Shown here: positions 2,531-31,000 of the stretch, piece after piece
Layout of the letters: each line of letters opens with the position of its first letter
Numbering within the stretch: position 1 is the stretch's first letter
Source of the DNA: Ulota crispa
Lineage: Eukaryota; Streptophyta; Bryopsida; Orthotrichales; Orthotrichaceae
Direction: 5' to 3'
Length of the DNA stretch: 64,000 bases
NCBI GenBank assembly: GCA_963920765.1
Contig: OY987242.1
Span: 11,186,789-11,250,788, forward strand
The notes under the pieces: generated by a model
The model's input: the letters and a program-made list of their open reading frames with translations, nothing else
Database searches by the model: none
Told to the model about the DNA's origin: nothing
Program-made: the position numbers and the translations under genes

Positions 2531-3486
2531 TTAACCCGTAAAGGACCAAGTGGCTGTTCAACAGCCACTTGAGAACTCAAGTAGGACCATATGAAGTCAA
2601 CTTTTATTGAATGTTCTCAAAATTGTCATGCAAGGTGCAAATATGTATCTTGTAAGTGGAGATGTAAATTTTTTCCCAATCGGATGCCCGGTTCAAAAAC
2701 TATGTTACCCAAAAGAATTTGGGCAACTTGGGCAACTTGGACATCTTTGGAGAATCTTATGCTAAAACTCTCATCAACTTTTGAAATTTGGCAAGTATGT
2801 AACTAAAAAAATATGGTGTACAATTGTCAAAGAAAACAAAAAAAAATGAGCTCTCACATCACATTTTGAAGGGAGTCAAACTTTGTTACCTACGTTCGGG
2901 CAGTTTCAAGAAAAAAAAATTCCTTTAACTTCAAGCCCTATTATCTTTCAATCTGTAAATCCAAAGCTCTTGAAACTTTTTTTCACACATTCCAAATGTT
3001 TATCTCCAACTTTCCATTGTTCAGATTTCAAATAAAAAACTTCCACAATGCACAAGAAGTCATAAAAGAATGACGAGTGTATTGCCAATTCACTAAACCT
3101 CCTTGCATTGGAGGGTGATTTAGAATAAGCTAGACTCTATATTTGCATCTGAAAACTTTCATGAGTGAACCTAACATCACATACTTGTGAATGGTCAAAA
3201 AGCTCAAATTTGTGTAGTTTTTAAATTTTACTCTAGGAAGGCTCAAAGCCTGTTGACCTTGTTTTGCAGGAATGAAAAAAAGTTGATTTTCTTACTTCAA
3301 ATGTTATAATCTTACAATCCGCGCGGTCAAATGGGCTGAAATTTTTTGCACACGTTAATTTATTGGTTTTACAAACTTTTGTACGGTTGAAATTGAGAAC
3401 AACAAAAAAAGATTTTGTGCAATGCACTAAAAGTTGGCAGTTTTTGAGATTTTTCTCAAAAAACACCCTTGGTCCTTTAGGGCATA
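2531..3486. mobile_element. TTAA-flanked MITE, family A (about 950 bp)
   Basis: The left end is TTAA-CCCGTAAAGGACCAAG. The right end is CTTGGTCCTTTAGGG (to 3482), followed by a decayed target copy, CATA. The first 590 bp match the copy at 20758-21360 closely. The general TIR (CCCCTAAAGGAC) is shared with the copies at 9334-10274 and 25949-26880. No protein is encoded. Its right end borders, and supplies the stop codon for, the protamine-like reading frame on the minus strand. Confidence 0.8.
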
Positions 3487-4514
3487 AATTGCATAAGAAA
3501 AGCTGATTGTTGCATCCAATAAGAGAAGAAAATGGTCATTGAAATAATCATTGCATCTCTAAGGGGAAATCTATTGATTGGATTTGGCGGACAAGGATTT
3601 ACTGGACAAACTTTTGGACAAATACCCATATGACTAATTTTAGAGGTGGCTTGACTTCTTGGGCATGGAAGACAATGTGTTCTTCTACGACGTCTTTTTT
3701 GTCGTATTGGACGGGGTCGTCCATGATGTCCGTGACTTCCGCTTTTGCTTCGGCTACGACTTTTGCTTCGGCTTCCACTTTTACTTCTACTACGACTTCT
3801 TCTTCTTCTTTTGTGTACACTCAATGCATCTCTGTAATCAATTAAATCAAATTATAAAAATGATAGCTTCTTACACCCAAAATCCAAAATACAAAAGACA
3901 AGAAGTTCTACTATTTACATGATTTGCAAATTATAAATTTTGATTGAATATCGATTGGCACTTGCTAAGCTACACATTCACCATTGAAATTTTATTAAGA
4001 TTTTTATATGTTACATAGAATGCAAAGTAAAAAGTTCAAAAAAAATCTTCAAATTATATCTATATGATAATATCACAAAAAGTGAAAATGTGATATTATA
4101 AAGGTCAATGTGATTGTATCTATAATATAACAAAGATTGAAGATGTGATATTATAGAATTGAAAATGTGACATTACAAAGGTCATTGTGATTTTAGTAGT
4201 ATGATGATATGATGTTTAATATAATAAATAAGACGCTTTAATGAGCACCTTGCACATTCAGGTACAATTTGATATCGAGATCCTTGCTTTCGTAAGCAAC
4301 GAGTCTTCATAAGGCTACTAATTGCACGTTTAATAGATTTTGGATGTTTGGAACCATCAATACCCCTTTTCTTGTAAATATTCATAACTTTACGTTCAAT
4401 TTGACGACGAGTTGCCCCTGGCCTCCGTTTGAGGCAAGCCATGGCTGTTTTTACCATACATTTATACAAAGGCCATCGTTGCCGCCTTCTACGACGTTGC
4501 TTTTTTCGACCCAT
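3477..4514 (-). CDS. Linker-histone-derived protamine-like protein (H15 domain plus Arg/Ser/Cys tail)
   Basis: Two-exon model on the minus strand: exon 1 4514-4249, intron 4248-3832, exon 2 3831-3477, about 206 aa. Exon 1 starts MGRKKQ with a run of five Arg, then a winged-helix H15-like region at about residues 14-84 (WPLYKCMVKTAM, RRPGATRRQIERKV, KSIKRAISSLMK, SRYQI). This is the pattern of a histone H1 globular domain, but with Arg and Cys where H1 has Lys and Ala. The acceptor GATTACAG at 3839-3832 joins in frame to a tail of Arg/Ser/Lys repeats (RRRRSRSRSKSGS), a basic QKRRRRRTHC patch and a CPKVCPVNPCPPNP cysteine/proline stretch. The composition resembles sperm protamines, and H1-derived protamines are known from liverworts. 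The expected role is packing DNA in sperm nuclei, with cysteines for disulfide links. The donor (AAG|GTGCTC) is weak. The last codons and stop fall at the edge of a MITE. The alternative is an intronless 110-aa H15 protein. Confidence 0.68.
3832..4248 (-). other. Proposed intron of the protamine-like gene
   Basis: This 417-bp AT-rich stretch separates the H15 exon from the Arg/Ser exon. It ends in a good acceptor (ATTGATTACAG) and starts with a weaker GTGCTC donor. It contains an imperfect 31-bp direct repeat at about 4083-4115 and 4162-4193 (AATGTGATATTATAAAGGTC type). Splicing here keeps the reading frame, with the junction inside an Arg codon. Confidence 0.55.
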
Positions 4515-5950: not shown

Positions 5951-7028
5951 TCATGTCACATGTCCAAAATTGAGGTAGGAAGTAATCAGCTGAAAATAGT
6001 TTAGCTATTGTATAAATTGCATGAGTTTAGACATTGACCATGGGTCCGGAATACTTTTTGACTCCCAGCAATTTCAGTTTTACAAATAAAATTATGAGAA
6101 ATTTGCAAAGAAATTTGCAATCCCAATGTTTCTTACCTTCCTACCTCAAACTCAATTTGAGTAAGAATCGCTTAAGTTATTGGATATGGGTGCGTCCACC
6201 TTAGGAGACCATAAACAAGCAACAACGCCACAAGAGGTTCTCGCAGGATACAGACGTAACCCTAAATAAGCAATGATCTCCCGAGAGAGACGTTGCCACC
6301 GTTCTTCACTTCTCCACGTATTTTCTTTTACGAGTATGCCCACGACATCTGGGCAGTTTTGTGCTTCGATTGATGGGCCCCGTGAGGGGCAGTCCAAAAA
6401 ATCTGATATGCCGGTGAGTGAACCCAGCGCACGGTATTCTTTAGTAAAAGGCGAAAGACTAGTCCGCTCTGTTCTGAGCACCCGGCCGCATAATTTTCAA
6501 GCTTACGCATGCTGGGTCTTGTACAGACAAGATGAAACTCTTTGCAGCAATGCCTATGGGCTAAGTAGAGGCCACGGCAAGCGACCTAAACGTGGTACCT
6601 TAAACTGCCGCCAAGGAGAGTGACCTCTGTTATGTGGCAGCTCGCTCTGATGTGCACATAAGCTTACTTCTCTCAAGGACGAATCTCTATCAGTCACTAC
6701 TTGCTCACTCCATCCCCTTGAGAATACGTAGAGCACTGCAATAGTTTGTGTCACTTGCAAGCCGAAGCAACAATCAAACCGACTTAGCATCCAGAACTTC
6801 AGAATCCCCTAAAGACCTTCTACAGCCTATATTATGGGTAGTGACATGATCGATCCGGTAGCATCACCATCTGCTATTTTGTCCGAACAAGTATTCAATA
6901 CATCGAAGCACAGAATTGAGAGCGAACTCCCATACTTCCATGCTGCATCAGAATTGGCCATAGTGATTTTCAGCGTTTTCCGCCTTTGGACACCGGACTT
7001 GCTAGAAGCTTGCCGAAACAATGTTTCT
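5951..7028. other. Single-copy-looking, GC-richer stretch without a recognised gene
   Basis: From about 6150 the base composition becomes balanced and non-repetitive, unlike the surrounding AT-rich DNA. Frames up to 116 codons occur on both strands but none matches a family I recognise. A short inverted repeat (TTGAGGTAGGAAG near 5974, CTTCCTACCTCAA near 6137) marks its left side. It could be an untranslated transcript, a decayed gene or promoter DNA. Confidence 0.35.
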
Positions 7029-7386: not shown

Positions 7387-7649
7387 TTATATTGCATGTT
7401 GTCCAACACTTCCATGCATGGTTCGGTAACTCCGCTCAGGAATTACATTGTCATTTCCACAGTGTCTCCAAGTTAGATTTTAATTCCCAACTCCGATGCA
7501 GCATTCGAAAGACCTTAGTAGATTCTTATTGGGTCACTTGTACGGCGTTTTCATGCTCACCAACTAATCTCTTGTTGAGTTAAGTTGTATTAGCATTAAT
7601 CCTAGTGCACTACATCATTATTGTATCCAGTTTCGGATTTCATGTTGGA

Positions 7650-7808
7650 TGAGGGCCGCGCGAACGCGAGCCCCCGCTGCCACAAATTATGACGTGTATG
7701 CCTCCCGTGGGAAGATACTAGAGTTGCCCGGCCCGAAAGTGCAATGGGGCAGACTCCTCTAGGCCATCCACCTTTCGGATCACGGATCGACCCCGCCCAG
7801 GTAAGTGA
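7650..7808 (-). ncRNA. U1: U1 spliceosomal snRNA
   Basis: Read on the minus strand, the 5' end is UC-ACUUACCUGG, the stretch that pairs with 5' splice sites. GGCGGGGUCGAUCCG and the stem-loop arms characteristic of U1 follow. The Sm-binding site AUAAUUUGUGG is present, and the terminal stem-loop is GCUCGCGUUCGCGCGGCC, as in plant U1. The length of about 159 nt fits plant U1 (about 160). The first two bases differ from the usual AU, so the exact 5' end is uncertain. An upstream element in the right place suggests a real gene rather than a dead copy. Confidence 0.92.
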
Positions 7809-27639: not shown

Positions 27640-28050
27640 GTTTTAGAGTTTGTGATTTATATACAGCATTTATTTACAGCATTGGCATGAACGGAAGAAC
27701 GTCGAGGGCGAGTCGGAGCGGGGACTCGCTTCGAGAGAGTTCCAGAATGTCGTAGTTCGAAGGGACGAGATGATTGAGTGTGAGCATCGTTGCTCACGGT
27801 TTAGGGTTTGGAGCTTTCACTAATCTCAATCTAGGCGCGGGGGATTTGTACCGCCGGTGAGGACGCGTTGACTGAGACGACGACGACGCAGCAATCTTCG
27901 CCGTCGCCGTGGCCATGGCGGGTCCACCTTTTTTTGGTGCCATGGTGGGATTAAAGTGACGGCATTAGTAATTCGGGTTTGCAGCAGACGGGAAGGGAGG
28001 GGAGGACGAGTTGAGAGATCGTTGCGGAGCTAGTTTAGTTTGTTAGAGAG
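27640..28050 (+). promoter_or_regulatory. Promoter and leader of the histone deacetylase gene
   Basis: The sequence turns GC-rich at about 27690. A telo-box-like GGTTTAGGGTTTGG lies near 27799 and a CG-rich leader runs up to the ATG. No clear TATA box is seen. A small upstream frame at 27555-27755 is probably chance. Confidence 0.5.
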
Positions 28051-31000
28051 ATGGAGCTGGGCGGGAATTCGCTCGTTGCGGGGCCGGAGGCGCGCAAGCG
28101 GCGAGTATCGTATTTTTATGATCCCGATGTCGGGAATTACTACTACGGGCAGGGGCATCCCATGAAGCCGCAGCGGATTCGGATGGCGCACTCGCTGCTG
28201 GCGCAGTACGACATTCTTTCTCGGGTGGACGTGGTGCGGCCGCAACCGGCGAGAGATCGCGATCTTTGCCAGTTCCACGCCGACGACTACGTAACGTTCC
28301 TGAAGGAGGTGACGCCGGAGACGCAGTTCGAGTACCACTCGCGGCAGCTCAAGCGCTTCAATGTGGGCGAGGATTGCCCTGTCTTCGACGGGCTGTACAA
28401 TTTCTGCCAGACCTCCGCCGGCGGCTCCGTCGGCGGTGCTATGAAGCTCAATCAGGGCCTTAGCGACATTGCCATCAACTGGGCGGGCGGCTTGCATCAT
28501 GCCAAGAAGTGCGAGGCGTCTGGATTTTGCTACGTTAACGACATCGTGCTCGCTATTCTGGAGCTTCTTATTCATCACAAGGTACCCCCTTTTTTATGAA
28601 TGAGTTTTAGGCGAGTGTCTTTAATAATCTATGAAAAATCACTGCCGCAATAGCAATTGTTCAGTTGGTGTCCGTTGTCTTTTGAGCTTGTATTGCTCGC
28701 CTTTTAAGGTGCTTACAGCATTTTCTTTTCTTTGGAAAGCAAGAGAAGTAACTCACTAGAAGTTTTTGTTTCCGTCCGTAGCTTACATCCTCATTTGTAT
28801 TCTTAGGTTATGTTAATACTTCTATTGCTGATGTTTCTGATGGCTTCAGACGCTTATCATATTCTCTTCGAGTTGGAAAATTAAAGAATATACTCATTAG
28901 AAATTATAGTTTACATCCTCAGTTTGTATCTTCGGCTTATGTCGGCAGTTTATATTCTTAGCTTATGTTCTGTTCCTGACCTTCTTTATATCATATTACG
29001 TGACGTCTGGATCTTCTTCTTTTTCAAGAGTAGGAGAAGAACCTCAGTAGAAATTCTTGTGTCACTCCTGTTGTTCTTTAGTTCAAAACCTAATTTTTCC
29101 ACGTTAGTTGCGTTTTGCAAAGTTGGGGAAGTATTCGAAGTGAGATAGTTCCAAACAATCTTTTGTGCTTTATTGAGAAGAAAACATTGATCTGAAGTCG
29201 ACCTGTGGCATGCAGCGAGTACTGTACATTGACATTGACATACACCATGGGGATGGTGTGGAGGAAGCATTTTGGACGACTGATCGAGTGATGACAGCCT
29301 CTTTCCACAAGTTTGGTGACTACTTTCCTGGGACAGGGGATGCTCGCGACATCGGTTATGGGAAGGGGAAGTATTATTCATTGAATGTGCCCTTGGATGC
29401 CGGGATTGACGATGAGAGCTATCAGTCGCTCTTCAAGCCCATCATGGCTAAAGTGATGGAGATTTACCAACCAGAAGCCGTGGTTCTGCAGTGTGGGGCT
29501 GATTCTTTGTCTGGGGATCGCCTTGGCTGTTTCAATTTGTCCGTGAAAGGCCATGCCGAGTGTGTTCGGTACATGCGGTCTTTCAACGTGCCGTTGCTGC
29601 TTGTGGGTGGTGGCGGATACACGATTCGCAATGTGGCTCGCTGTTGGTGCTATGAGGTTAGACTCCTCTTACCTTCATCATTGAGTGACAGACGCTCGTA
29701 ATTTGTTTGTTTGCAAAATCTGTGACCTTATAGTTTGCAAGCTCTGGAACCAAATATCAGAATAGTGACCTGGTTGTGACTGTGAAGCCATTGTATTGCT
29801 ACAGTATTCAAGGTAGTCTTAAACTGTGCAATAGGTTGCTTTAGGTATTTGTTAATGTGCTAACGTTCCTAAAGGACACTAGCTTTGTCCTGAAAGCATG
29901 TAACGATTTTCCAAATAGCGTAAGCTTTCAAATCTAACAAATTTTCCTTATTTTAATTATTATGTCAAGCGTTGCATTACAGACGGCTGTGGCAGCAGGA
30001 GAAGAACTTGATGACAAGTTGCCCTTCCACGAATATTATGAATACTTTGGCCCTGATTATAATCTACACGTTGCACCCAGTAATATGGAAAATCGGAACT
30101 CACAAAGGGATCTTGATAATTTGAGGTTGGCTTTCCAACCTTGCTACTCAGTGTACTGAGAATTGATCGCTTATGGTTGTTGGAAGTGGTGCAATCACAA
30201 ACATTGTTACTGCTGTTTTTTTCCTGTCAAGTTTGAAGTTTGTTCCAAATCTAATTAGGGGTTCGTGTGCAGGACAAAAGTGTTGGAGAATTTGTCAAAA
30301 CTGCAGCATGTTCCAAGTGTGCAATTTTCAGAAAGGCCACCGGATAATGAACTTCATGAAAATGTATGTGTTTTGCTATTTGATCGATTCGGTTCTTTGT
30401 GTTTAATGGGCTTTGTTGGAACATCCAGAACTTTTGTAGACCTTCTTACCTTTGAATGAATTCACTCTCAAGCTGTTCTTGAATATAGGAGGAGGAAGAA
30501 TTAGATGTTCGTGAAAAGAGTCGCACATGGGATGGTGAATTGTCTGATTCTGACTCGGAGGAGCACGACATACCTCATCGCCACCAGGGAGTAATTGCTA
30601 GTGAAGCGGCATTTGCAAGGTCAGCACCTCTGCATCCAATTGCCATGTTTTATTTTCTTCTTTAGACCTGTCTAGTTGATTACAAGTGGTAGGAGGATCA
30701 ACTTGTAACAGTGTTTTTCTACTGGTAATACAATCTGTAAGAGGACCACTCAAAGTCTTTTATTGGAGGGAGTGCTACAGAGTGGTTCATTCAAGAGGTT
30801 GTGTTGTCAGTAGGATAAACACTGCTGTGTAACATTGTTTCCAAAATTATCAAGGAGAAGAGAGATGAAACTACAATCTTTATTGATGTAGTTTTTTCTT
30901 CTCAAGCTTCTTACTTTTACGAAGATTTCTGTTTGAAGTGGATGTTGTCATCTTTTCTGATGAGACACCTTTGATATTCTAAAATACAAGATGTGAAGGT

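Follow-up and report, generated by a model that had tools for sequence, protein, structure and literature searches.

The locus examined here, in a 64,000-nucleotide stretch of the Ulota crispa genome (contig OY987242.1, positions 11,186,789 to 11,250,788; hereafter the window), raises the question of whether a moss gene that joins a linker-histone fold to an arginine-rich tail encodes a protamine-like protein of the sperm nucleus. Linker histone H1 is regarded as a repeated source of protamines, both in animals and in plants, where one liverwort is the known case. The sperm chromatin of Marchantia is said to consist of protamines without histones (PMC9402228), and mosses are counted among the plants with protamine-packed sperm (PMC9668745).

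The window gene (L013) lies on the minus strand and is made of two exons, 4514-4249 and 3831-3477, whose join of 621 nt forms a single ATG-to-stop frame for a protein of 206 aa with a pI of about 12 (12.0). Exon 1 (4249 to 4514) contains the start codon, an N-terminal arginine run, and the entire H15 winged-helix domain, and it ends five residues beyond the last predicted strand of this domain. Exon 2 (3477 to 3831) encodes an Arg/Ser/Cys tail and the stop codon; RS/KS repeats are followed by a His/Gly piece, an RRRRR run, a Cys/Pro-rich stretch (3591 to 3674, from the first to the last of the five cysteines of the exon), and an unexplained hydrophobic C-terminus (3480 to 3557). About 110 nt past the stop codon, a single AATAAA hexamer on the same strand (3359 to 3364) is a possible poly(A) signal. 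Between the exons we propose a phase-2 GT..AG intron of 417 nt (3832 to 4248). By a scoring matrix that approximates a plant one, its acceptor is good, exceeding 98% of the AGs on the minus strand, and its donor (AAG/GTGCTC) must be graded weak, with a score of 1.2 that exceeds 92% of the GTs. Among frame-compatible pairs (donors from 4300-4183, acceptors from 3960-3791), the pair 4248/3831 has the highest summed score (5.0, against -3.9 for the next), a lead of 8.9, and splicing at this pair likely joins the two exons. We found no internal donor scoring above 0.3 for a second splice within exon 2 that would remove the hydrophobic end. The window also holds genes for the U5 and U1 spliceosomal RNAs, 1.2 kb apart on the minus strand (6375 to 6487 and 7649 to 7808) and both above the Rfam gathering threshold, and plus-strand exons at 28039 to 29698 that presumably belong to a class I histone deacetylase.

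Exon 1 encodes a genuine linker-histone H15 domain. Taken alone, it matched the Pfam Linker_histone profile (PF00538) with 25.1 bits over residues 15-74 (4293 to 4472), above the gathering cut-off of 22.4, and the spliced 206-aa protein scored 22.6 bits, barely above the same cut-off. Against an HMM of the genome's own H15 domains (ten stretches besides this one), exon 1 reached 32.5 bits, whereas the best of 2000 composition-preserving shuffles reached only 7.4; a chance match caused by the abundance of Lys and Arg was therefore rejected. A structure model of exon 1 (mean pLDDT 79.7, with ten-residue blocks of the domain at 80-90) has the three helices and the beta hairpin of a winged helix (H15-30, H36-49, H58-69, E74-77, and E80-83), and its Foldseek matches include the H1 globular domains 8yti_V and 1uss at E-values of 0.6-0.73; no H1 chain was among the 50 matches listed by VIA-align. 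Less favorably, the top PDB sequence matches of exon 1 were designed helical proteins (E-values of 1.4e-7 to 0.001), and chains of H1.0 and H5 ranked after them (0.011-0.34). In the alignments shown, the designed-protein matches consist of single stretches that are weak (i-Evalue of at least 2.8) and are summed over repeats, and we take them to be probable composition noise.

The composition of the predicted protein departs from that of ordinary H1. It contains 38 Arg (18.4%), 20 Lys, 23 Ser, and 9 Cys, and its R/(R+K) ratio is 0.66. The ordinary H1 proteins L002 and L003, both measured without their first exon, have ratios of 0.12 and 0.10 and no cysteine. At this ratio the tail is not the Lys/Ala/Pro C-terminal tail typical of ordinary plant H1; given the inferred splice, the protein is an H15 core followed by an arginine-rich tail. 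Nor is it a classic protamine, short, overwhelmingly arginine, and devoid of a globular domain, in view of its length, its arginine content, and its H15 domain. The reading frame of exon 2 could be examined in an 18-nt tandem repeat that encodes SKSGSR/SKSRSR/SKSGSH (3742 to 3806; array 3742-3798/3806). In the RS frame, pairwise comparison of the three units gave 10 synonymous and 4 nonsynonymous differences, whereas either of the two other frames gave 2 and 12; these are low counts from a single array. Because this synonymous bias favors the RS frame, the acidic alternative frame of exon 2 was rejected as the coding one. A search of the genome for a paralog of exon 2 returned only exon 2 itself at E-values up to 10, and its low complexity may hide one. 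These results bear out the preliminary description, made from the letters of the window: the coordinates, the minus-strand frame, and the in-frame join were as it gave them, the H1-like winged helix that it placed at residues 14-84 agrees with the modeled elements, and its proposed descent from a linker histone agrees with the scores of both H15 profiles. Its remarks on the replacement of lysine by arginine, on the protamine-like composition of the Arg/Ser/Cys tail, and on the meaningless acidic frame hold as well.

To place the gene among its relatives, we searched the whole genome, which amounts to 275 Mb and includes 11 chromosome-size contigs of 41.4 to 6.3 Mb and a twelfth of 18.6 kb. The PF00538 profile matched 16 places, 13 of them above the cut-off. 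Three are ordinary H1 genes with Lys/Ala/Pro tails (L002-L004). An H15 domain with an arginine-rich tail was found above the cut-off in five others (L005, L006, L008, L010, and L014), and a protein search added a sixth, L040; R/(R+K) ranges from 0.50 to 0.65 in these six intact relatives. A similar gene with a His/Arg-rich tail (L015/L042, C1:37477834-37478208, plus strand), below the cut-off, is interrupted by one in-frame TAA inside H15, for which a recent pseudogene and an assembly error are candidate readings. With the window gene, the set thus comprises eight genes, seven intact and one interrupted. In all three ordinary H1 copies, a CAG resembling a splice acceptor lies where helix 1 of H15 begins, a position through which the frame of the window gene and of the six intact relatives is open from the ATG. 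Two further matches, L016 and L017, fall below the cut-off. Another pair, L007 (C10:5943251-5943442, minus strand) and L009 (C6:12621786-12621962, plus strand), combines H15 with a Lys/Arg-rich N-terminus and a long Ser-rich tail and is distinct from both ordinary H1 and the Arg-tail genes. L011 (C1:41113227-41113334, plus strand) and L012 (C1:41129237-41129344, minus strand) share an identical 48-aa frame with a partial H15 match; their opposite orientation, 16 kb apart, suggests an inverted duplication.

Some observations concern the genome at large. Plant-type telomeric TTTAGGG arrays lie at the end of 3 of the 11 contig-end stretches examined (L019, L022, and L023), six read N at both ends, and two (L026 and L028) are without an array. 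The Lhca3 protein is identical to PDB chain 8htu_3 at 185 of 203 positions; we take this chain and the next three Lhca3 matches to be from Physcomitrium patens, which favors a moss over a liverwort, although the PDB may contain no antenna protein from liverworts. At L070 (C3:10256974-10257336, plus strand), an ORF of 494 aa has a light-harvesting-like domain, which matches PDB antenna proteins and continues in frame into a second part that is presumably CcsA, normally plastid encoded; possibly, a plastid gene has been transferred to the nucleus and placed after an LHC leader.

Within the Arg-tail set, the similarity of the window gene to the other members is low. As a query against the genome, exon 1 found only itself at E-values up to 0.001. 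Conversely, L005 and L008 found exon 1 at E-values of 1.03 and 2.1, respectively, and the window gene was not among the matches of L014 and L010 up to 10. Given this weak pairwise similarity, we assign it to the set by the H15 profile and the layout that it has in common with the others. A phylogenetic tree, from which we left out L011 and L012 (same 48-aa frame, 36-residue match), L015/L042 (in-frame stop), and L016 and L017 (below the cut-off), recovered two groups, PLa (L006, L008, L014, and L040; support 70/90) and PLb (L005 and L010; support 62/27). The window gene joined neither with support, PLb being nearest by path, and its branch of 2.14 is the longest in the tree (median of end branches 0.33), in a protein of odd composition. 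The preliminary description had also placed the gene between H1 and a classic protamine, which is fair as a statement about composition; since its position in the tree is unsupported, the gene need not be an evolutionary intermediate.

Identity of the window H15 domain is 16-27% to those of PLa and 26% and 32% to those of PLb (L005 and L010). Like the window gene, PLa genes have an H15 domain without an internal intron and an arginine-rich tail. However, one open frame covers both parts in PLa, whereas the window gene has its tail on an exon of its own. PLa tails are moreover of the Arg/His type and, to our eye, probably nearer to classic protamines than the window tail. In three of these four genes (L006, L014, and L040), the acidic linker that connects H15 to the tail is followed by a VPSRRRR/VPARRRR junction (VPSRSHR in L008), absent from the window gene; this junction is a possible processing site, which would free a protamine. 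PLb proteins begin with MGNKP, resembling the MGRKK of the window protein, but their tails share one frame with H15 and have no RS repeats.

Control by the plant male-germ-line factor DUO1 would support, though not define, a protamine-like sperm protein. The consensus of DUO1 is given as RRCSGTT, and the protamine-like gene MpPRM of Marchantia is stated to depend on MpDUO1 (PMC6290024). We searched 1 kb upstream in 13 regions, namely those of the eight genes of the Arg-tail set, the three ordinary H1 genes, L007, and L009; the regions of L002-L004 are poor controls, since they precede the H15 exon and are not known promoters. Matches, in the form of doubled sites, were confined to L010 and L014, for a background of 0.36 matches per kb of window. 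The six other Arg-tail genes, including the window gene, had no site, nor had L007 and L009, and the window gene had none in 3 kb. For the narrower form AACSGTT, the eight upstream regions of 500 bp contained 4 sites, each of them in L010 or L014, against 0.15 expected from the 9 sites in 237,622 bases of the window and other loci; this form was chosen after the sites had been seen, which makes its computed probability too favorable. The DUO1-type sites thus support a putative male-germ-line role for L010 and L014 and are uninformative about the window gene.

We consider it somewhat probable that the product of the window gene is a protamine-like sperm nuclear basic protein that evolved from linker histone H1. 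We infer its sperm function purely from resemblance, and its low similarity to the other genes in pairwise comparison slightly lowered our confidence; the presence in the genome of a whole set of H15 genes with arginine-rich tails makes a sperm protein a more natural reading. The most likely mechanism, by analogy with H1-derived sperm proteins, would have the gene expressed in antheridia and its product condensing DNA. The winged helix would bind nucleosomal or linker DNA, and the arginine-rich N-terminus and the RS/KS tail would bind along the DNA and neutralize its charge. Phosphorylation of serines before loading may regulate that loading, and the cysteines could cross-link the packed chromatin and lock it through disulfides. 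Together with the six other intact Arg-tail proteins, the window protein would help to take the place of histones during condensation of the sperm nucleus.

Three other explanations were weighed. The gene may be a former sperm gene of this protamine-like set that is now decaying and has lost its tail, or whose end is read from noncoding DNA. We regard this as unlikely, yet kept it in play because the branch is very long and no close paralog accompanies it. The odd composition, the weak donor, the in-frame TAA in the related L015/L042, and a hydrophobic C-terminus with no counterpart, by eye, in the six intact relatives all point the same way. On the other hand, 206 codons are open across two exons, the H15 domain still exceeds the Pfam cut-off and is well folded in the model, the RS repeats retain a synonymous bias, and fast evolution is usual among sperm basic proteins. 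The RS/KS dipeptide repeats, which are genuine, and the hydrophobic end could instead indicate a nuclear H15-RS protein working outside sperm, for example an RS protein associated with splicing or chromatin, or a tether at the envelope with its end at the membrane. We hold this to be quite improbable: the best 19-residue mean hydropathy of that end is 1.1, below the usual mark of 1.6 for a membrane helix, and a Pfam scan of the whole protein revealed no RNA-binding domain above cut-off, the only other row being CoV_nucleocap (9.5 bits, E-value 0.64, cut-off 30), taken as chance. Both the RRRRR runs with the nine cysteines and the genomic context of H15 domains with arginine-rich tails fit a protamine-like tail better.

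It is very doubtful that the two exons belong to different transcripts, exon 1 forming a tailless H15 gene. If the intron is kept, the frame of exon 1 does continue for another 22 residues before the stop at 4184-4182 that ends a product of 110 aa, and this reading would also account for the weak donor. However, the frame of exon 2 contains no ATG upstream of the acceptor as far back as the previous stop, exon 2 requires a phase-2 donor, the splice pair 4248/3831 widely outscores its competitors, and a basic tail follows H15 in all six intact relatives. A bolder conjecture, to which we give little credence, is that regulated splicing at the weak donor chooses between the tailless 110-aa product and the protamine-like one during spermiogenesis, in addition to proteolytic cleavage, the tail having been gained or rebuilt separately from the Arg/His tails found in the relatives.

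Ordinary H1, the six intact Arg-tail genes, the interrupted copy, and the RS/Cys gene of the window form a graded series within one species. With related genomes, such a series lets one test the order in which the H15 intron was lost, lysine gave way to arginine, and cysteines and RS repeats were gained. The Arg-tail H15 genes are candidate genes for the protamines of moss sperm; among the matches listed for the open-licence literature, as titles and beginnings of abstracts, there was no description of moss genes of this type.

H1-derived protamines are already known from Marchantia, and the window gene is a variant. By its title, a 2019 report by D'Ippolito reportedly derives the Marchantia protamines from male-germ-specific H1 histones. 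Marchantia polymorpha is likewise a nonvascular land plant, its germ-line H1/protamine proteins are also arginine rich and encoded by several genes, and H1 descent, by that title, would be shared; L010 and L014 further carry DUO1-type sites upstream, as expected of genes that depend on DUO1. A tail on an exon of its own, RS repeats, nine cysteines, and an odd hydrophobic end are features that probably set the Ulota window gene apart. Animal PL-I proteins are sperm proteins of H1-like type that combine a winged helix with basic tails, some of them with cysteine, and a cysteine-containing PL-I was reportedly described by Zhang in 1999. In general terms, they share with the window protein an H15 core and protamine-like tails, and since they belong to a different kingdom, any likeness beyond H15 would be convergence.
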